Of a stretch of DNA of 35,716 bases, positions 3,252 through 35,716 are shown piece after piece. The stretch lies in NCBI GenBank assembly GCA_016795285.1, contig JAEUIC010000004.1, positions 1 to 35,716 of the forward strand. The letters run 5' to 3'. The DNA is from Planctomycetota bacterium (GTDB lineage: Bacteria; Planctomycetota; B15-G4; SIAN01). Each line of letters opens with the position of its first letter. Position 1 is the stretch's first letter. The position numbers and the translations under genes were made by a program. Under the pieces are notes generated by a model, which was not told where the DNA came from, searched no databases, and saw only the letters and a program-made list of their open reading frames with translations.

Positions 3252-4070
3252 TCAGAAGCGCAGCGTGAGGCCGGCGACGACGCCGCTCAGCGTGACGTCG
3301 CCGTCGAACGCCTGCCCGCTCGCCTCGCCGTCGATCTGCACCAGCAGGTGGCGCCAGCCGGCGAACAGGCCGAACAGGCCGAAGCGCCAGCGCACCAGCG
3401 CCTCGACGTCGAGCAGCGCGCCGTCGATGTCGGCGTAGGAGAGCTTGACGCCCGCCGCCGAGAGCTCGAAGGAGAGCGGCAGCAGGTCGAGCTCGCCGAG
3501 GTCGAAGGTCGCGCGCGCCGCCAGCAGCGGCACCGCCTGCTGCACGTCGATCGACTCGTCGAGCCCGAAGACGATCTCGTGGACGTCGAGCTGCACGTCG
3601 ACCCACTGCGCGGCGAGCCCGACGCCGAGCTGGAACGGGCCGCTGTCGATCACGTCGCCGAGCACGCGCAACTGCACCATCGAGAGCGCGAGGTCGCTCT
3701 CGACGTCGGAGCCGGCGGTGATGTCGCCGAAGTCGGCGGTCGCCGTCCCGCGGCCGCTCGCCTCGGTGGTGAAGCCCCACGCGGCGAGGTCGAGGAAGCC
3801 GAAGTCGAGTTCGGCGCGCGGCAGCGGCGCGACGTCGGCGTCGTCGAGCGAGAGCTCGCTCGAGAGGTCGATCTCGTCGAGGTCGGTGAGCGTCGTGTTG
3901 GAGAGGCCGAGCGACCCGTCGATCGACGGCAGGTGGACGCCGGCGTCGAAGGTGAACGAGGCGTTGCTGCCGAGGCAACCGGTGGCGCCGAGCAGCACCA
4001 TTGCGCTCGCGGCGCGCCGCGCGAGGCAGCGCGTCGCGGGATCGGCGGGAAGCGGGGCGGCGTGGTCCAT
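3252..4070 (-). CDS. Putative exported outer-membrane beta-barrel protein
   Basis: This 272-residue protein starts at an ATG preceded by a clear AGGAG site about 8 nt upstream. The N-terminal ~33 residues look like a signal sequence; it ends in LGATGC, which could be a weak lipobox or simply the end of a signal peptide. The rest is made of alternating polar/hydrophobic stretches typical of transmembrane beta-strands. It ends in the strand GVVAGLTLRF with a terminal Phe, the usual C-terminal signature of Gram-negative outer-membrane barrels. It is convergent with the helicase gene and divergent from the phosphoesterase at 4232. The barrel reading is inferred from sequence pattern; the specific role is unknown. 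Confidence 0.65.
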   Translation of the reverse strand: MDHAAPLPADPATRCLARRAASAMVLLGATGCLGSNASFTFDAGVHLPSIDGSLGLSNTTLTDLDEIDLSSELSLDDADVAPLPRAELDFGFLDLAAWGFTTEASGRGTATADFGDITAGSDVESDLALSMVQLRVLGDVIDSGPFQLGVGLAAQWVDVQLDVHEIVFGLDESIDVQQAVPLLAARATFDLGELDLLPLSFELSAAGVKLSYADIDGALLDVEALVRWRFGLFGLFAGWRHLLVQIDGEASGQAFDGDVTLSGVVAGLTLRF

Positions 4071-4157
4071 CGTGGGAGCTCCTGATGGCCCCTCTTCGGC
4101 CGCCGGGCGGCGGCAGGACGAGCGCCGTCGTGCACGGCGCGGCCGGTGACCGATTGC

Positions 4158-4173
4158 AACGGCCGCGGCCGTT
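4158..4173. promoter_or_regulatory. Perfect 16-bp palindrome in a divergent intergenic region
   Basis: AACGGCCGCGGCCGTT is identical to its reverse complement. It lies in the 161-bp gap between the divergently transcribed barrel gene (start 4070) and phosphoesterase gene (start 4232), a position typical of an operator for a dimeric regulator. No regulator gene is adjacent, and such GC-only cores also arise by chance in high-GC DNA. Confidence 0.3.
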
Positions 4174-4231
4174 CTCTTTCGTGGCGCGCCGCCCCGATCC
4201 CTCCGATCGCCCCGGTGAAGGTCGCCCCCCG

Positions 4232-5848
4232 ATGGTGAAGCTCGTCCGCACCCCTGTCGCGACGGCGGCGCTGGTCGCGCTGCCGGCCGTCCTCGCGCTG
4301 GCGGCGGTGCTGCCCTACGCGCGCGAGCGTCCGCCGCGAGCGCCTGCGCCCACTTGGTCCGACACCACCGTCGTCGCCGGCTTGCTGCACGCGGCGCCGA
4401 TGGCGGGGCGCGCGCGCGGCGACGCGATCGAGCTGCAATTGCTGACGGCGACTCGTCCGGTCGCGCTGCAGCTCTTCGTCGCCGCGGAGCCGAGCGAGCC
4501 GTCCGCCGCCGACGCCGCCGCGCCGCTCGAGCAGCCGGTCGCGTTCGGCGAGCTGCGCACCGCCGATCCGGCGCCGCGCGCTCGCCACCTCGCGAGCGGT
4601 TCGCTGGCGGCGGCGGGCGCGAGCGTCGCGCCGCTCGTGCTGCCGGCGGACGCCGCGATCGAGCTCTCGATCGAGGGGCTCGCGCCGGGCGTCTCGTACC
4701 GCTGGCGCTGCACGCTCGGCGAGGCGGACGCGGGCGAGCGGCACGGCGCCGCGCGCGCCACCGCGATCGCCACCGGCCGCTTCGTCACCGCGCGTCCGCG
4801 CGGCGCGCCGTTCCGCTTCGTCGTCTTCTCCGACACCCACGTCTTCCCCGCCGTGCTCGAGCCGGAGCTGCCGCCCGAAGTCGCGCGCGACGAGTACTTC
4901 CTCGGCATGGTGATGGAGAGCCTCTTCTGGTACCGCACCACGCGCGAGCGGGTCGCCGCCGAGGCGGCCGCCGTGTTCGAGCGGATGGACGGCGAGCGGC
5001 CCGACTTCGCGGTGAGCCTCGGCGACGTCTTCGACCTGCACGGGCGCGGCTTCAACTGGGCCTTCCCGGCGCAGGAGATGGCCGACGCCGCGCACCTCGA
5101 AGCGCGCCGCGCGCTGACCGCGTTGAACGGCGCCGGCTCGCTCTTCCAGGTGCTCGGCAACTGGGAGGGCGAATCGGGTTGCCACCCGGACGAACCGCGC
5201 CGCTTCGCCCGGCTCGCTCGCCAGCGCCACACCGTGAACCCGCGGCCCGCCACGTCACGCGTGCCCGGCAGCCCCGACGAGGACTACTACGCGTTCGAGT
5301 GGGGCGACCTGCTCGGCATCGCCTTGAACGTGCGCGGCTACACGCCGACCGTCCACCACCTCGATCCGGCCGAGCCGGGCGGCGGCAAGCCCGACGACTT
5401 CACGCTCGGCGCCGCGCAGAAGCAGTTCCTCGAGGCGACGCTCGCGCAAGCGGAGCAGCCCTACCGCGCGCTCTTCCTCCACCACGTGGTGGGCGGCAAC
5501 GCCGGCAATCCGGCCGACTCCGCCTACGGGCGCGGGGGCGGGCGCGCGGCCCACGTCGGCGAGCAGGAGTGGGTCCACCAGCTCTGCCGCCGCCACGGCG
5601 TGCAGGTGATCTTCTACGGCCACGACCACGTCTTCACCGACCTCGAGGTCGACGGCATCCACTACACGTTGCCCGGCACCACCAGCGCGCCGTGGCGCTT
5701 CAGCGCGGCGGAGACGGGGTACGACCGCTTCTGGACCGACAGCGGCTACGCGCGCGTCGACGTCGCGCCGGCGCAGATGAGCGTCGAGTTCGTGAACCTC
5801 GCCGGCGAGCTGCTGTTCGGCTACACGGTGGCGCCGAACGCGAAGTGA
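4232..5848 (+). CDS. Secreted or membrane-anchored calcineurin-like metallophosphoesterase
   Basis: This 538-aa protein begins with a hydrophobic segment (about residues 9-28) that serves as signal peptide or anchor. Next comes a beta-rich region of ~170 residues that may correspond to the fibronectin-like domain found ahead of purple acid phosphatase domains. The catalytic domain shows all the dinuclear metal-site motifs: DTH at 201-203, GD at 264-265, GNWE at 309-312 (in place of GNHE/D), HH at 417-418 and GHDH at 463-466. It should hydrolyse phosphomonoesters or diesters outside the cytoplasm; the substrate cannot be predicted. The ATG at 4232 is chosen because a typical signal sequence follows it; upstream codons in the same frame overlap the divergent gene. 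A weak GAAGG lies about 11 nt upstream. Confidence 0.88.
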   Translation: MVKLVRTPVATAALVALPAVLALAAVLPYARERPPRAPAPTWSDTTVVAGLLHAAPMAGRARGDAIELQLLTATRPVALQLFVAAEPSEPSAADAAAPLEQPVAFGELRTADPAPRARHLASGSLAAAGASVAPLVLPADAAIELSIEGLAPGVSYRWRCTLGEADAGERHGAARATAIATGRFVTARPRGAPFRFVVFSDTHVFPAVLEPELPPEVARDEYFLGMVMESLFWYRTTRERVAAEAAAVFERMDGERPDFAVSLGDVFDLHGRGFNWAFPAQEMADAAHLEARRALTALNGAGSLFQVLGNWEGESGCHPDEPRRFARLARQRHTVNPRPATSRVPGSPDEDYYAFEWGDLLGIALNVRGYTPTVHHLDPAEPGGGKPDDFTLGAAQKQFLEATLAQAEQPYRALFLHHVVGGNAGNPADSAYGRGGGRAAHVGEQEWVHQLCRRHGVQVIFYGHDHVFTDLEVDGIHYTLPGTTSAPWRFSAAETGYDRFWTDSGYARVDVAPAQMSVEFVNLAGELLFGYTVAPNAK

Positions 5849-10751: not shown

Positions 10752-11789
10752 CTACCGGAAGCCGTTCAGGTACTTCTCGAACGCTTCTTTCGGCGGGCGG
10801 CAGTCGGCCTCGTCCATCTGCGCCATCGTCTTCGGGTTGTTGACGCGCATCGCGGTGTTGAGGTCGCGCTCCTTCTCGGCGATGTAGATCAGGCCGGTGA
10901 GGATCTCGCCCTTCTTGCGCGACTCTTCCAGCAGCTGCAGCGCGGCGAACTTGTCGTGCGGATCGTGGTTGTTGTTGACGCCGCGCACGATCAGGTGGCT
11001 GCCGTCGGGCAGCGGGATCTCGACCGCCTCGCCCGGCTTGATCTCGGCGGTCGGCTGCTCCCAGGGCGACACGAAGCCGAGCTCGTTCAGCTTGATGTCG
11101 TGCTCCATCACGTAGTGGATCGACTTGGTCGACCCCTCGTGGTTGTTGAAGGTGACGCACGGCGAGATCACGTCGAGCATCGCGGTGCCGCGATGGGCGA
11201 CCGACGCCTTGATCAGCGCCAGCATCTGCTTGGCGTCGTTCGAGAAGCCGCGCGCGACGAAGGTGCCGCCGAGCGTGATGGTGAGCGCGCAGAGGTCGAT
11301 GTCGGTGAACTCGTTCACCTCGCCGATCTTGCTCTTCGCGCCGCGCTCGGAGGTGGCCGAGAACTGCCCCTTGGTGAGGCCGTAGACGCCGTTGTTCTCC
11401 ACCACGTAGACCATGTCGACGTTGCGGCGGACGAGGTGGCAGAACTGCCCCATGCCGATCGAGGCGGTGTCGCCGTCGCCCGACACGCCGATCACCTGCA
11501 GGTGGTGGTTGGCGAGCTTGGCGCCGACCGACACCGACGGCATGCGGCCGTGCACCGAGTTGAGCCCGTAGCCGCGGTGCACGAAGTAGGCGGGCGTCTT
11601 GCTGCTGCAGCCGATGCCCGAGGTCTTGACGACGTTGTGCGGCTCGAGCCCGAGCTCGTAGTAGGCCTGCACGATGTTGCGCGTGATGTTGTCGTGGCCG
11701 CAGCCCTTGCAGAGCGTCGAGGGCAGCCCCTGGTAGTCGGAGAGCTTGAAGCCGCCGCGGTTGGTCTTCTCGTTGGTGACCGTGCTCAT
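10752..11789 (-). CDS. korB: 2-oxoacid:ferredoxin oxidoreductase, beta subunit
   Basis: This 345-aa subunit carries the thiamine diphosphate site and one iron-sulfur cluster of a 2-oxoglutarate-type (or other 2-oxoacid) ferredoxin oxidoreductase, which oxidatively decarboxylates a 2-oxoacid to an acyl-CoA while reducing ferredoxin. Visible signatures are the cluster cysteines in LCKGCGH (Cys27, Cys30) and SGIGC (Cys61), the ThDP/Mg motif GDGD at 104-107, and ENNGVYGLTKGQ. Length is normal for KorB. It follows korA by 67 bp on the same strand and should be co-transcribed. A purine-rich AGGAA lies shortly before the ATG. The exact 2-oxoacid cannot be fixed from sequence alone; 2-oxoglutarate is the likeliest. 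Confidence 0.93.
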   Translation of the reverse strand: MSTVTNEKTNRGGFKLSDYQGLPSTLCKGCGHDNITRNIVQAYYELGLEPHNVVKTSGIGCSSKTPAYFVHRGYGLNSVHGRMPSVSVGAKLANHHLQVIGVSGDGDTASIGMGQFCHLVRRNVDMVYVVENNGVYGLTKGQFSATSERGAKSKIGEVNEFTDIDLCALTITLGGTFVARGFSNDAKQMLALIKASVAHRGTAMLDVISPCVTFNNHEGSTKSIHYVMEHDIKLNELGFVSPWEQPTAEIKPGEAVEIPLPDGSHLIVRGVNNNHDPHDKFAALQLLEESRKKGEILTGLIYIAEKERDLNTAMRVNNPKTMAQMDEADCRPPKEAFEKYLNGFR

Positions 11790-16170: not shown

Positions 16171-18741
16171 ATGCCACCTGTCGATCCCAAGGTCGTCGAG
16201 TCGCTTTTCGAGGCGCTCCTCGCGCTGGAGAAGCCGCGCCGCGCCGCCGAGTTGCGGCGGCGGGCTGGCGGCGATGCCGCGCTCGAGCGCGAGGTGGCGT
16301 CCTTGCTCGAGGCCGACGAGGCGGCCGGCGACTTCCTCGAGGCGACCACCGCGCTGCGCGAGCTCGCCCGCGAGGTCGAACTCGACCTCGAGCGCGCCGA
16401 GTCGCCCGATCCGCTGGCGCCCGGCTCGGTGGTGGGCGCCTGGCGGCTGATCGAGGTGATCGGCAGCGGCGGCATGGGGCGCGTCTGGCGCGCCTCGCGT
16501 GCGGTCGGCGGCTTCGAGCAGCAGGCGGCGCTGAAGGTGGTGCGCGTCAGCTCCGAGCAGTCCGACATGGTCGCCCGCTTCGCGCAGGAGCGGCAGACGC
16601 TCGCGGGGCTCGAGCACCCGTCGATCGCGCGGCTCCTCGACGGCGGCGCGACGCCCGATGGTCGCCCGTTCCTCGCCATGGAGCTGATCGACGGCGAGCG
16701 GATCGACGAGTACTGCCGCAAGCGCGAGCTGCCGCTCGACGCGCGCCTGCGCCTGTTCGAGAAGGTCTGCCGCGCGGTCGAGCACGCCCACCAGCGGCTC
16801 GTGGTCCACCGCGACCTGAAGCCGGCCAACATCCTGGTGAACGGCGAGGGGGAGCCGAAGCTGCTCGACTTCGGCATCGCGAAGCTCCTCGCGCGCGAAC
16901 CGCGGCAGGGCGAGGTCGACATCACCGACGAGGCGGCGCGCCGCTTCACCGTCGAGTACGCGAGTCCCGAGCAGCTCTCGGGCGCGCCCATCACCACGGC
17001 GAGCGACATCTACTCGCTCGGCCTCATCCTCTACGAGCTGCTCACCGACGCGCGCGCCTTCGAGCTGCGCGGCAAGCAGCTCACCGAGGTGGTGCGGCTG
17101 GTCTGCCACACCGATCCGCTGCCGCCGAGCGCGCGCGAGGCGCTGCCGCCCGCCCGCCGCCGGCGGCTGCGCGGCGACCTCGACGCGATCCTGCTGAAGG
17201 CGCTGCGCAAGGAGCCGGAGCGGCGTTACGCGACGGTCGCCGAGCTGCGCGAGGATCTCGAGCGCCATCGCCAGTCGCTGCCGGTGCGCGCCGCCGGCGA
17301 CACGACGCGCTACCTGGTCGGCCGCTTCGTGCGGCGCCACCGCTTCGAGGTCGGCTTCGCGCTGCTCACCGTCCTCTCCCTGGCGGTGGCGCTGGCGGTC
17401 AGCCTGTTCCAGACGCAGCGCGCCAACCAGCTCGCGACGCGGCTCGGCACCGAGCTCGACCAGCGCGGGCAGGCGCTCCAGTTCTTCGCGCAAGTGCTCG
17501 GCGCCGCCGACCGGATGATCGGCAAGGGGCCGCACACGACGCTCGGCGAGATCCTCGACGCCGCGTCGACCCGCTTGATCGAGAAGCGCAGTTTCGCGCC
17601 CGAGGTGGAGTACTCGCTGCGGGACACGCTCGGCCTCTCCTGGCTCGGCGTCGACGAGGTCGAGCGCGCCGTCGACCAGTTCGAGCGGGCGCTCGCGCGG
17701 CTCGACGCGGCGGCGGTCCCGGCCGACGACACGCGCCGCCTCGAGACCGGCCGGCGCCTCCTCGTCGCGCGCATCACCATCACGCGCGGCGAGGAGCGGC
17801 GCGCGCTGCTGAAGGAGCTCGAGGAGCTGGTCGAGCGCTACGCGGTCGTCTTCGGGCCGACCGATCGCCACACGATCTACGCCCGCTGCGACCTCGCGGT
17901 CACCTTCGCCAACGTCGGCCTCGCCAACAAGGCGCTCCCGCTGGCGCGCGAGGTCGAGGCCTACCTGTCGGGCGACCACGACGTCCCGCTCGACAGCTGG
18001 GTGCGCCTCTCGGCGCCGGTGACGCTCGCCAACGCGCTGTTCGGTTGCGGCGAGGTCGAGGCGGCGCTCCCGATCGTGCGCGCCGGCTACCTCGACCTCG
18101 AGAAGAGCTGCGGCGAGTCGCACGACTACACGCTCGACGCGATGCACACCTACGCGGCGATCGAGTCGCAGCTCGGCCACCACGACGTCGCCGAGCCCCT
18201 CTTCCGCGAGCTCATCGCGCGCCGCGAGCGCTACTTCGGCGCGAACAGCCGCGAAGCGCTGCGCGCGAAGGGCGACCTCGCCATCGTCTACGCGCGCCAG
18301 GGCAAGCATGAGCAGGCCTACGAGCTGTTCGTCCAGGTGCTCGCGGCGCAGCACGACGCGGCGGGCGAACTGACGGGCGACGGCACGGTGACGCTCGGCA
18401 ACACGATCAACTCGCTGCGCTGCCTCGGCCGCTACGACGAGGCGGTCGAGCGGGTCGCGGAGTACGAGGCGGCGTCGCTGCTCCACTTCGAGCGCAATGG
18501 CCTGCCCGACGGCTACCGCTGCCTGATCGCCGGGGTCACCTACCTCGAGGCGCAGCAGCACGAGGAGGCGCTCCCGCGGCTCGAGGAGGCCTACCGCATC
18601 TTCGGCGACATCGAGGGCGCCGACGGCGGGCAGGCGCGCGAGACGGCGGCCTACCTGCGCCGGCTCCACGACGAGCTCGGCGACGCCGCCGAGGCGGAGC
18701 GGTGGGGAAAGCTCTCGCAGGCGCCGGGCGGCGACGGTTGA
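16171..18741 (+). CDS. Transmembrane Ser/Thr protein kinase with TPR-like sensor region
   Basis: This is an 856-aa protein. A helical N-terminal ~85 residues precede a complete Hanks-type kinase domain: glycine loop GSGGMG from residue 98, ATP-anchoring Lys122 (AALKVV), catalytic HRDLKPAN with Asp215, DFG at 233-235, YASPEQLSG, and DIYSLGLILYELL. A single transmembrane helix follows at about 392-414. The long C-terminal part, predicted outside the cytoplasm, is helical with TPR-like repeats (for example AIESQLGHHDVAEPLFREL and LAIVYARQGKHEQAYELF). It is likely co-transcribed with the upstream sigma factor gene and may phosphorylate it or its partners. The ATG at 16171 lacks a strong ribosome binding site, but upstream codons in this frame overlap the sigma gene. 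Confidence 0.92.
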   Translation: MPPVDPKVVESLFEALLALEKPRRAAELRRRAGGDAALEREVASLLEADEAAGDFLEATTALRELAREVELDLERAESPDPLAPGSVVGAWRLIEVIGSGGMGRVWRASRAVGGFEQQAALKVVRVSSEQSDMVARFAQERQTLAGLEHPSIARLLDGGATPDGRPFLAMELIDGERIDEYCRKRELPLDARLRLFEKVCRAVEHAHQRLVVHRDLKPANILVNGEGEPKLLDFGIAKLLAREPRQGEVDITDEAARRFTVEYASPEQLSGAPITTASDIYSLGLILYELLTDARAFELRGKQLTEVVRLVCHTDPLPPSAREALPPARRRRLRGDLDAILLKALRKEPERRYATVAELREDLERHRQSLPVRAAGDTTRYLVGRFVRRHRFEVGFALLTVLSLAVALAVSLFQTQRANQLATRLGTELDQRGQALQFFAQVLGAADRMIGKGPHTTLGEILDAASTRLIEKRSFAPEVEYSLRDTLGLSWLGVDEVERAVDQFERALARLDAAAVPADDTRRLETGRRLLVARITITRGEERRALLKELEELVERYAVVFGPTDRHTIYARCDLAVTFANVGLANKALPLAREVEAYLSGDHDVPLDSWVRLSAPVTLANALFGCGEVEAALPIVRAGYLDLEKSCGESHDYTLDAMHTYAAIESQLGHHDVAEPLFRELIARRERYFGANSREALRAKGDLAIVYARQGKHEQAYELFVQVLAAQHDAAGELTGDGTVTLGNTINSLRCLGRYDEAVERVAEYEAASLLHFERNGLPDGYRCLIAGVTYLEAQQHEEALPRLEEAYRIFGDIEGADGGQARETAAYLRRLHDELGDAAEAERWGKLSQAPGGDG

Positions 18742-33082: not shown

Positions 33083-33198
33083 CAGCTTCTCCGGAGGGGC
33101 TGGTGGGTCGTATGCGATCGCGCTGCGCGCCGGACTTCGTTGTAGTGCCGCCGCTAGGCTTCGATGAGGACCTTCGCATCCTTGAGGGGCTTGAAGGG
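33083..33198 (-). pseudogene. IS3-family transposase (OrfB) C-terminal remnant
   Basis: The minus strand reads PLKDAKVLIEA, a stop (TAG, 33156-33154), then RRHYNEVR and, in another frame, RSAIAYDPPAPPEKL. This matches the C-terminal end of IS3-family integrase-type transposases, which typically reads like EAKVLIEAWRRHYN followed by VRPHSSLGYRPPAP. The stop sits where Trp is expected (TGG to TAG), and a frameshift falls near RPHS. Only about 40 residues remain, directly downstream of the IS256-type pseudogene. The match comes from memory of the family motif. Confidence 0.55.
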
Positions 33199-33287
33199 TT
33201 GTGTACAGAGTCTTGTGCGCATCGCCCTGCTTGAGTGGTGGTCCTGATCGGGTCTGGGTTGGTTTTTGGTCTTGGTCTTCCATGCTC

Positions 33288-33305
33288 CCGCCCCCATGGG
33301 GGCGG
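33288..33305. repeat. 18-bp perfect palindrome downstream of the IS256-type pseudogene
   Basis: CCGCCCCCATGGGGGCGG equals its own reverse complement. It lies 10 bp past the transposase stop (minus strand), where a terminator or element end would be expected. Confidence 0.45.
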
Positions 33306-33314
33306 CGCGCGGCT

Positions 33315-34502
33315 TTAGCTCGCGGTCCTTGCGTGTTGTTCCGCGCGCGGTGGCGTCTGCTGCAGCAGCTCCCTGTCGAGGTATCGACGGGTGCCCCAGC
33401 GCGTGCCGGCGACGTAGCGCCGCTGCGCGCTGACGAGCATCAGCGCCGAGTTGCCGTCCGGGGTTGCCGAAGACGCGCTTACGCCGGCGGATCTCCCGCA
33501 TGAGGCGCTCATGCGGGTTGTTGGCCCGGATGCGGCGCCAGTGCTCCGACTGGAAGCCGTGGTAGACCAGCGCCTCCTTTCCGCCGGTCCGCACCAGCTC
33601 GGCCGCCTTCGGCAGCTTCATGAGCGTGAGCTTCTGCGTGACGTGCTCGAGCTTCGACATCGCTTCTTCGCGGCCTTGCTGCGAATGGACGGCCTTCAGC
33701 ATCAGCGTCATTTCCCTGACCATCTGCTCGGGACCGGCGAGAAGACGTTGCGTTAAAAGTGCACGACGCAGGGCTGCCACTTGGCGTCCGGGAAGAAGTC
33801 GGCGACGGAGTCGACCAGGCCCAATCAGCGATCACTGATCACGAGCTTCACCCCCTTGAGCCCGCGCTCCTTCAGGTAGTGCAGGAAGCTCGCCCAGCTC
33901 TCCTTGTCCTCCTTGGCGGCTTCCGCAACGCCGAGGATCTCCCGGAAGCCGTCCTTGGTCACGTCGACCGCCACCAGCACGGCGAAGTTGCGGATGTCGC
34001 CGCCCCAGCAACGCTTCAGGGAGATGCCATCCAGGTAGTCGTAGGGATACTCGCCCTCGATCGGGCGCCGCCGCCACTCTTCGATGGTGGGGTAGATCTT
34101 CTGATTGAGCTGGCTCACCGGACTCGGGCGCGCTCGCGTGCCCCAGAGCGCTTCCGTGATGTCTTCGACGCTGCGCACGGAGACCCCGGCTAGGTACATT
34201 TCAATCAGCGCCTCTTCGAGCGATGACTCCCGTCGCCGGTAGCGCTCGAGGATCTCCGTCTCAAACGGTGCCGACCGCAGCTTCGGCGCCTTGAGCGCCA
34301 CTTCACCAGGCTGCGTCCAGAGCTTGCGCTCGTAGTGCCCCTCACGCGTGCTGGCGCGCGTCGCCGTCCGCTCGTTGCGCCGCGCCCTGCACAGCTCCGT
34401 CGCCTCGCTCTCGAGCATCGAATTCAGCGTCTGCTCGACAGAGCCGCGCACCATCTCAGCCAGGTGGCCGCGCACTGTTCCCTCGTCGATCTGGATGATC
34501 AT
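33315..34502 (-). pseudogene. IS256-family transposase, inactivated
   Basis: The minus strand encodes an IS256/Mutator-type DDE transposase of about 395 codons. Recognisable segments are RGSVEQTLNSMLESEATELC, TQPGEVALKAPKLR, YDYLDGISLK (first catalytic Asp), LVISD (second), then LGLVDSVADFFPDAKWQPCV, MLKAVHSQQGREEAM, HWRRIRANNPHERLMREIRR, and finally NSALMLVSAQRRYVAGTRWG. The gene is broken four times: TGA at 33827-33825 right after ISDR, TAA at 33755-33753 where Tyr is expected in VVHFYRN, a frameshift near 33740 (after VFSPVP), and a compensating frameshift near 33470. The start is taken as ATG 34502 (MIIQIDEGTVRG); an in-frame ATG at 34565 would add 21 residues. No clear terminal inverted repeats were found. 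Confidence 0.88.
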
Positions 34503-34655
34503 CCCGCCCTTGGTAGCTTCCTCGCGCAAGGTGGTCCTCGTTCGGCGTTGGGTCGGTCTCAGCAACCGAACGTGTACCCGACCCGTTCGGGGCTCACCAA
34601 CTCGCCTTTGGCAAGGTGCGCAACTAACCGTACGTCATTGGCGCCCACGGCTTCT

Positions 34656-34743: not shown

Positions 34744-34935
34744 AGTGCCGTCGCGCTCTTCGTCAGGACGGTCCCTGGGGCACGACCGCCGACAGACTTG
34801 AGCCGAGCGACGCAGTGAGCGATCGATGGGGCGCCGCGTGGAAAGACCAGGAGACTGAGCTGCACGCCAGACGAGACTTGAGCGCTAGACCCAGCTGTCC
34901 GCTCGACTGAGTTAATGGGGGCGGACCTCCGGTCC
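34744..34935. other. Gene-free stretch before the first attC-like site
   Basis: No gene is supported. AGACTTGAGC occurs twice (about 34793 and 34873). A short hairpin GGCGGACC-TCC-GGTCCGCC (34920-34938) runs into the first attC-like element. If this is an integron array, a first cassette or attI site would be expected here, but none is recognisable. Confidence 0.5.
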
Positions 34936-35034
34936 GCCGAACGTCGTCCTTAACCTGCGAAGGCGCCGGTCAGGAACCGTTCGAACGCCCGCCGCCGTAT
35001 CGGCGACTTCGTCAGGTTCAAGGGCATGTTCGGC
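34936..35034 (+). repeat. attC-like recombination site 1 (integron type)
   Basis: This 99-bp element begins with GCCGAAC (R'' box, RYYYAAC-like) and ends with its exact complement GTTCGGC (R' box, GTTRRRY-like with one deviation). Inside, CCTTAACCTGCGAAG pairs with CTTCGTCAGGTTCAAGG for 15 bp, leaving two unpaired bases on one strand, the extrahelical bases typical of attC. The outer and inner stems are separated by unpaired spacers of 5 and 4 nt, as in the known architecture. The loop-proximal part is variable. Confidence 0.8.
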
Positions 35035-35665
35035 GGCATTCTCCGCCTACGCGACCCGATCCGTCGAATCGAGTTGGTCGCTTGCGATCGATCGAATGCT
35101 CTGTCTCCATTATTTCGTCTTGATTAGGTCAGCTCCATCTCTGGAGAAACCCAATCCCCAAGGCTGAAATTCATCGCTGAATACCAAAAGGTGCGTCTCC
35201 GACCATGATCTCCGTTCAGTGCGACCATCGTACATGCGCTCAACTGGCTCTAGATTAATCCAAGTGCTACCTCGTAACTTGCGCGAGGTCGACCAGAGAC
35301 CTTTCTCCCGAAGTAGTTGGAAAGTCGCTCCGTCGAGGTGATCTTCCTTCTCATAAGTGTATGACATGTCGTCGGATAGAGACAGTCGCATAAGATAGTA
35401 GTCGCCTGGCTTGCCATGCACATACTCACCAACGAACGCGATATTGGGGATTTCGGTTGCGCGCAAATGCCATGCATAAGCGGCGATCGTGCCGCTGAGC
35501 GGCAGCGCGACAAACCAGAGCAATCGCTTACGAGTGAGGAGTGATCGCTCCATGCCGCTACCCCAATGTCCGCCGAACGTCGTCCTTAACCTGCGAAGGC
35601 GCCGGTCAGGAACTACTCAATTCTTCGGTCGGCGTTTCGGCGACTTCGTCAGGTTCAAGGGCTTG
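35029..35665 (+). mobile_element. Integron-type gene cassette (637 bp)
   Basis: The boundaries are set by the expected cleavage between G and TT of each R' box (35028/35029 and 35665/35666). The cassette carries one reverse-oriented gene and the body of attC site 2. Its GC content looks clearly lower than the first 26 kb, consistent with transfer. When circularised, its own end G plus TTCGGC would pair perfectly with its R'' box GCCGAAC. Confidence 0.7.
35110..35553 (-). CDS. Cassette-borne membrane-anchored protein of unknown function
   Basis: This is a 147-residue protein. Residues 9-28 (KRLLWFVALPLSGTIAAYAW) form one hydrophobic anchor or signal segment after a basic N-terminus. The rest is a small soluble domain rich in aromatic and charged residues (EYVHGKPGDYYLMRLSL, LLREKGLWSTSRKLRGSTW), probably beta-rich and outside the cytoplasm. 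No family is recognised. The gene starts 19 bp from attC site 2 and reads away from it, opposite to the usual cassette orientation, so it would need its own promoter. The ribosome binding site is weak (GGGGTAG about 4 nt upstream of the ATG). Codon use is visibly less GC-biased than in the main chromosome genes. Confidence 0.65.
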   Translation of the reverse strand: MERSLLTRKRLLWFVALPLSGTIAAYAWHLRATEIPNIAFVGEYVHGKPGDYYLMRLSLSDDMSYTYEKEDHLDGATFQLLREKGLWSTSRKLRGSTWINLEPVERMYDGRTERRSWSETHLLVFSDEFQPWGLGFSRDGADLIKTK

Positions 35666-35671
35666 TTAGGC
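35572..35671 (+). repeat. attC-like recombination site 2 (integron type)
   Basis: This 100-bp element shares its first 46 nt (GCCGAAC through the GGTCAGGAAC segment) and the inner 3' arm CGGCGACTTCGTCAGGTTCAAGGGC with site 1, while the loop between them differs. The R' box is GTTAGGC, a perfect GTTRRRY match, but it mismatches R'' (GCCGAAC) at one position, as expected when TTAGGC belongs to the next cassette. Confidence 0.8.
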
Positions 35672-35716
35672 CGTTCCTTCGACACGAGCGGGAACTTCTC
35701 TGGTGAGTCCAAGGAC
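35666..35716 (+). other. Start of a further cassette, truncated by the window edge
   Basis: The sequence after the R' cleavage point is unlike cassette 1 and shows no complete gene in the 51 bases available. It implies the array continues to the right. Confidence 0.5.

Follow-up and report, generated by a model that had tools for sequence, protein, structure and literature searches.

The right end of a planctomycete contig raises the question of whether the repeats found there belong to an integron, and where the integrase of such an integron lies. The window, that is, the whole stretch of 35,716 nucleotides analysed here, is the entire contig C32 of a 5.77-Mb genome (G000; 47 contigs, 91% complete), and its last bases carry two attC sites bounding a gene cassette (Table 1). 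Our analysis indicates that the window very probably ends inside an integron cassette array, with the integrase encoded on contig C3 of the same genome (C3:3590-4783), probably at the opposite end of that array and in inverted layout. The initial annotation had remarked that the window holds no integrase gene; none lies within it, but this is uninformative, because the contig terminates at base 35716.

Two attC sites at the end of the window

To characterize the repeats, we re-examined the two elements of 99 and 100 bp that had been described as enclosing a 637-bp unit. Both lengths proved exact, and the spacing is 637 bases between right ends and 636 between left ends. On the minus strand, the R''/R' boxes read GCCGAAC/GTTCGGC in attC1 and GCCTAAC/GTTCGGC in attC2, and each site follows the order R'' - spacer - CCTT[G]AACCTG[A]CGAAG ... 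CTTCG CAGGTT AAGG - spacer - R'. The claim of exactly two unpaired bases on one strand held for both sites: the inner stem CCTT-AACCTG-CGAAG pairs fully save two single bases, on the 5' arm only. On the plus strand these are T35012 and C35019 in attC1 and T35649 and C35656 in attC2. Thus both R and L boxes were found, as were unpaired spacers, a variable end and extrahelical bases confined to one arm. In known attC sites, as described in the part of Bouvier et al. (PMC2727003) available to us, the recombining bottom strand bears the extrahelical bases in the L'' box. Since the extra bases lie on that arm here, the plus strand of the window is predicted to be the recombining (bottom) strand and the minus strand the canonical top strand.

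Table 1. Features of the cassette array and its surroundings (window positions unless a contig is named)
Feature	Position	Strand	Remark
attC1, 99 bp	34936..35034	-	R'' 35028-35034, R' 34936-34942 (minus-strand reading)
attC2, 100 bp	35572..35671	-	model R2 and stem pairing
Complete gene cassette, 636 bp	34942..35577	-	bounded by two predicted exchange points in R' boxes
Cassette gene, 147 aa, hydrophobic N-terminus	35110..35553	-	longest open reading frame of cassette
3' end of next cassette, with attC2, cut by contig end	35578..35716	-	C32 has 35716 bases
intI open reading frame	C3:3590-4783	-	TIGR02249 match 3755-4696
IS256-family transposase, two frames (34565-33825 and 33780-33154)	33154..34565	-	neighbour, outside integron

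To assess attC identity statistically, we used two covariance models. Model R1, built from eight attC sites of this genome and three of the congeneric metagenome-assembled genome Baikal-deep-G175 (G214, hereafter Baikal), is no test of the sites that went into it; model R2 drew on six attC sites, all from two genomes of the genus other than this one. R2 scored attC1 at 105.1 bits on the minus strand (E 6e-27) against 38.8 bits on the plus strand, and attC2 at 88.4 bits (E 3e-22) against 32.4 bits, and it recovered all 8 complete close attC copies of the genome. Across 11 sites, 97.2% of stem cells were paired and 5 of 27 pairs differed on both sides, a number matched by 3 of 500 shuffles. Sliding the columns by 1-3 lowered pairing to 19-45%, a control that favours the structure, since the structure was derived from the same sequences. 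The attC architecture proposed in the initial annotation is therefore borne out by an independent model and by covarying stem pairs.

A de novo attC finder gave attC1 and attC2 scores of 25 and 24, respectively. In 40 dinucleotide shuffles of the window, one finder score of at least 24 and 33 scores of at least 19 arose, so that single weak finder matches elsewhere mean little. Sites with another geometry escape the finder, so that its base counts refer to one geometry only, and at many of the named loci discussed below it gave no site in either expected place. Rfam returned no match for positions 34900-35716 at E 1, and at gathering scores its matches in the window were rRNA and tRNA only; as no attC was matched at those scores, Rfam offers no attC test.

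The integrase contig and the extent of the array

The initial annotation had proposed a search for intI, and this located the integrase beside attC sites on C3. The TIGR02249 profile gave a single IntI above cut-off in the genome (C3:3755-4696, minus strand, 458 bits; cut-off 265). Other tyrosine recombinases of the genome scored at most 104.5 bits, and 0 of 14 control genomes reached the cut-off. The C3 IntI aligned over 312 residues with the solved Vibrio integrase 2a3v (E 3.4e-87), and the residues that we take to be catalytic, R, H, R, H and Y, are all present. At the positions touching the two extrahelical bases, given with the IntI1 letters in the part of Larouche and Roy (PMC3053210) at hand, it carries K, R, K, Y, W and P, H, H, which are the IntI1 letters.

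To locate further copies, we searched the genome with a 22-base core pattern, allowing up to 3 mismatches. The results showed 11 matches: five at C3:1-2740, two on C32, three at C43:10841-12455 and one on C16, which has three mismatches and lies alone outside the clusters. The reversed pattern gave zero matches in the genome. Altogether, eight complete and two cut close attC copies form three clusters, each on a single strand of its contig. The C3 array comprises five attC sites, of which four are complete and one is truncated where the contig begins; these are near-identical to those of the window and share their orientation. The array follows intI on the downstream side, and its top strand is the strand that encodes intI, so that intI is transcribed toward the array and codirectionally with the cassettes, as in inverted integrons, and not divergently from them as in the standard class 1-like arrangement. 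A candidate R box, GTTCGGC, is found between intI and cassette 1 (C3:3372-3378); Baikal carries GACGTTAGCT in that alignment column, and the remainder aligns poorly.

Comparison among close relatives, which had likewise been suggested, revealed a shared integrase site with unlike cassettes. In Baikal, intI occupies the equivalent chromosomal site: 12.5 kb of C3 (3.75-16.2 kb, from intI outward) align at 72-85% with gaps, and intI at 71.6%. None of the cassette bodies, 8 from this genome against 3 from Baikal, matched by blastn or tblastx at E 1e-3, and the 8 did not match one another by tblastx. Such a difference in cassettes between two species with intI at the same site may be read as indirect support, from sequence comparison, for cassette exchange. 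The initial annotation had noted that repeats dispersed genome-wide, with no cassette variation between them, would speak against an integron; instead, 10 of the 11 pattern matches are clustered and the cassettes differ between congeners. The Baikal array holds two attC types, one with three stem pairs altered on both sides and one almost identical to that of the window.

The same layout predominated in the order to which this genome belongs. IntI was found in 8 of its 14 genomes, at 9 loci; at a finder score of at least 20, six of the nine had attC downstream on the intI strand, none had attC in the standard place, and no attC was found at three. An attC-model search over the 14 genomes, in which 150 of thousands of candidates were scored per genome, gave matches in at least 7, including three sites of 73-77 bits in the congeneric genome G119. 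On contig C6 (6023 bases) of an order-level relative (L128, G066:C6), nine attC-model matches of 61-64 bp were seen on one strand, and the contig looks to be mostly cassettes.

Between the two options initially left open, a larger chromosomal integron is the better supported, as the C3 IntI stands beside matching attC sites and both contigs break within an array; an array lacking an integrase is the less supported. We infer one array spanning C3 to C32. Several observations weigh against this reading. C3 starts within an attC site and C32 ends 45 bases beyond one, and no overlap was found between them. In one of eight cassettes (C3:719-1242, L010:719-1242), perhaps geneless or reversed, the longest open reading frame (101 aa) is antisense to the array, against 61 aa in sense. 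The attI between intI and the first cassette is a prediction. Lowering the score to 19 adds one weak standard-place match at each of two order loci out of the nine. No IntI match at E 1e-60 was seen in G119, although attC sites are present there, which suggests that sites can persist without an integrase. Finally, the genes left of the rRNA operon match Baikal contigs other than the one carrying intI. These neighbour genes were tried as a marker of the other end of the array in relatives and rejected, being unsupported by the comparison.

The strongest alternative is that the window sites form a separate attC cluster lacking an integrase (CALIN), left over after a rearrangement or an off-target insertion, on which the C3 IntI would act in trans if at all. 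The cluster on C43 shows that attC sites apart from intI exist in this genome, the window array is flanked by an IS256 element and the rRNA operon, and G119 bears attC sites with no IntI match; however, the right end of C32 and the left end of C3 break inside arrays with matching orientations, as one repeat-broken array would, and their attC sequences are near-identical, and we consider a separate cluster unlikely. That the repeats are an unrelated hairpin family (REP-like or terminator) mimicking attC is largely refuted and scarcely tenable, for although a few lone hairpins that share the core but lack clear R boxes stand just after stop codons (C3:165489, C19:89164), 10 of 11 pattern matches are clustered among cassette-like genes, the lone type is scarce (seven matches when 3 mismatches are allowed, two of which have a single mismatch, against 1 for the reversed pattern), the R boxes, spacers and both bulges are retained while stem pairs covary, and one cluster adjoins IntI.

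Under the preferred reading of one array served by the C3 IntI, the plus strand of the window, when single-stranded, would fold into hairpins in which IntI would recognise the bulged T and C, which are separated by six bases, and one strand would be cut within the R' box. The 636-bp cassette could then be excised or re-inserted, preferentially at the predicted attI by C3:3372-3378. Cassettes, mostly with genes reading away from attI, would turn over, while intI and its chromosomal site would be inherited.

The outer extrahelical base and related integrons

To place the C3 integrase among its relatives, we surveyed the phylum, in which 70 of 392 sampled genomes carried IntI above cut-off. We examined 49 of 93 listed planctomycete IntI matches, picked by score and size of contig and not at random, together with 31 named loci of other phyla. 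At a finder score of at least 21, 27 of the sites at the 49 planctomycete loci lay in the inverted place and 42 in the standard place, and 7 fitted neither. An IntI tree was built from 64 of 82 candidate sequences, 18 being dropped as short or containing stops; it required 6 layout changes, compared with a shuffled mean of 12.6. The C3 and Baikal IntIs fall in a clade of 24 sequences (support 97/97), of which 12 are inverted, 1 is standard and 11 are unlabelled. The C3 IntI is thus placed in an inverted clade, by labels from our own finder and on a tree containing no published inverted reference. The single standard label (L152) rests on one weak match against one on the opposite side, and inverted labels also occur outside the clade, some from single weak matches.

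An attC-bounded inverted integron is a known kind of system; the layout, the extrahelical base and the tRNA-bounded cluster described below are noteworthy. Inverted chromosomal integrons have been described for Treponema, in the part of PMC3607928 available, and resemble this one in the attC-bounded cassette array and the inverted layout. They differ in phylum; the likeness is by layout description and not by Treponema attC or IntI sequence, and the additional tRNA-bounded attC cluster is a trait of this genome. Planctomycetes appear among the integron-bearing phyla listed in PMC8618304, and a planctomycete attC model is given in PMC8352920; the phylum, the IntI family and the attC sites are alike, and this genus is unnamed in the portions of those accounts at hand. 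Class 1 integrons (IntI1, aadA attC) share the recombinase family, extrahelical bases six apart and the pocket residues, but differ in their standard intI orientation and in the aadA2 site, T-N6-G against T-N6-C in the window. The plasmid 1 integron of Gemmatirosa kalamazoonensis (L180) is alike in its inverted layout, in an IntI of the same 24-member clade and in mostly T-N6-C sites; it differs in being plasmid-borne and in having a longer array in the stretch read. With the present case, inverted integrons extend to a planctomycete order in which two congeneric species keep intI at the same chromosomal place and carry differing cassettes.

The outer extrahelical base is the first in the numbering of Bouvier et al. 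and the second in that of Larouche and Roy, whose naming we use. The pattern T-N6-C was present in all complete sites of this genome (8/8), of Baikal (3/3) and of G119 (3/3). Near the 49 planctomycete IntIs at score 21, it accounted for 51 of 58 T-N6 sites, the others being T-N6-G (6) and T-N6-T (1); six of the 58 came from this genome and Baikal, and 18 further sites had another geometry or place. The 31 loci of other phyla gave T-N6-C in 8 of 11 T-N6 sites, and G. kalamazoonensis plasmid 1 in 13 of 15 sites with a stem score of at least 16. A tie between C at the outer base and inverted IntIs was considered and rejected: at score 21, C was found in 29 of 34 sites of standard layout versus 22 of 24 of inverted layout.

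The class 1 yardsticks were few. The aadA2 site is T-N6-G, dfrA1 has another spacing, and the dfrA14 site of an E. coli plasmid (L184) is T-N6-C by the finder with only 5 of 7 R-box pairs; on an Alteromonas plasmid the finder gave no convincing attC site. The view of G as the norm elsewhere rests not on these but on the available parts of two papers. Bouvier et al. (PMC2727003) give G as almost exclusive at the outer base. In the laboratory experiments of Larouche and Roy (PMC3053210), T-N6-C was excised equally to T-N6-G by IntI1 and better by three other integrases, a result they termed unexpected, naming one natural cassette with that C. Our literature search for T-N6-C with attC and integron returned only PMC3053210 and no related titles; supplementary files and most subscription journals were outside its scope, and the base count is not claimed to be unpublished.

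These counts bear on a wider proposition whose chances we judge evenly balanced: that T-N6-C is the rule in integrons of planctomycetes and several other phyla, the proteobacterial code being partial, and that cassettes in a tRNA-Pro-targeted element on C43 have a second vehicle. If true, the recognition code drawn from proteobacterial cassettes would cover only part of integron diversity. Natural C-dominated arrays make it testable whether the base tracks efficiency, IntI lineage or neither.

Cassette contents, a tRNA-bounded cluster and neighbouring features

In integrons, the exchange point lies at G^TT in R', and the limits of the window cassette (34942..35577) are inferred from this rule. 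Its 147-aa gene reads on the minus strand, the direction expected for a cassette gene, and the longest contained open reading frame of the opposite (plus) strand has 42 aa. The protein had no match in Pfam or NCBIfam at E 1 and one homologue was found (P0001, 93% identical). P0001 is encoded on an 873-base contig, which is close to the length of one cassette. The usual composition of cassettes, one gene and one attC in one orientation, was observed: the longest contained open reading frame runs R''-to-R' in seven of the eight cassettes here and in two of the three from Baikal. Cassette 1 of C3 (L010:2771-3361, minus) narrowly matches the Glyoxalase family, at 21.6 against a cut-off of 20.6 bits, and a C43 cassette (L009:11556-12335, minus) encodes a DUF4145 protein.

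Two 53-bp direct repeats (L009:8157-8209 and 18185-18237; 98%) delimit a stretch of roughly 10 kb that contains the C43 attC cluster, and a tRNA-Pro gene (18190-18267) overlaps the right-hand repeat. The stretch encodes a tyrosine recombinase outside the IntI matches, an AAA_25 protein and a DUF1580 protein. The Baikal match to the region ends at L009:18189, the edge of the tRNA, and the left flank of an empty site was not found beside that match in Baikal. The stretch probably represents an integrative element that targets a tRNA and carries integron cassettes; if so, it gives cassettes a second vehicle in this genus. One C43 attC is truncated at 10828, at the end of a stretch that is also repeated in G119, probably by an insertion sequence.

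The attC-model search of this genome also gave weaker places, at C3:165489 (54 bits) and at C19:89164, C13:6327 and C46:42412 (31-34 bits). Lone hairpins resembling attC, which share the two bulges but lack clear R boxes, were seen at G000:C3:165489-165588, G000:C19:89042-89238 and G214:C47:141807-141881; the first two stand directly after stop codons. These isolated hairpins are perhaps decayed lone attC sites. Their interpretation as an abundant family ancestral to attC was rejected, the copies being too few.

In the window, the IS256-family transposase sits between the distal end of the array and the rRNA operon. An imperfect 32-nt inverted repeat (34658-34689/34711-34742) adjoins it.
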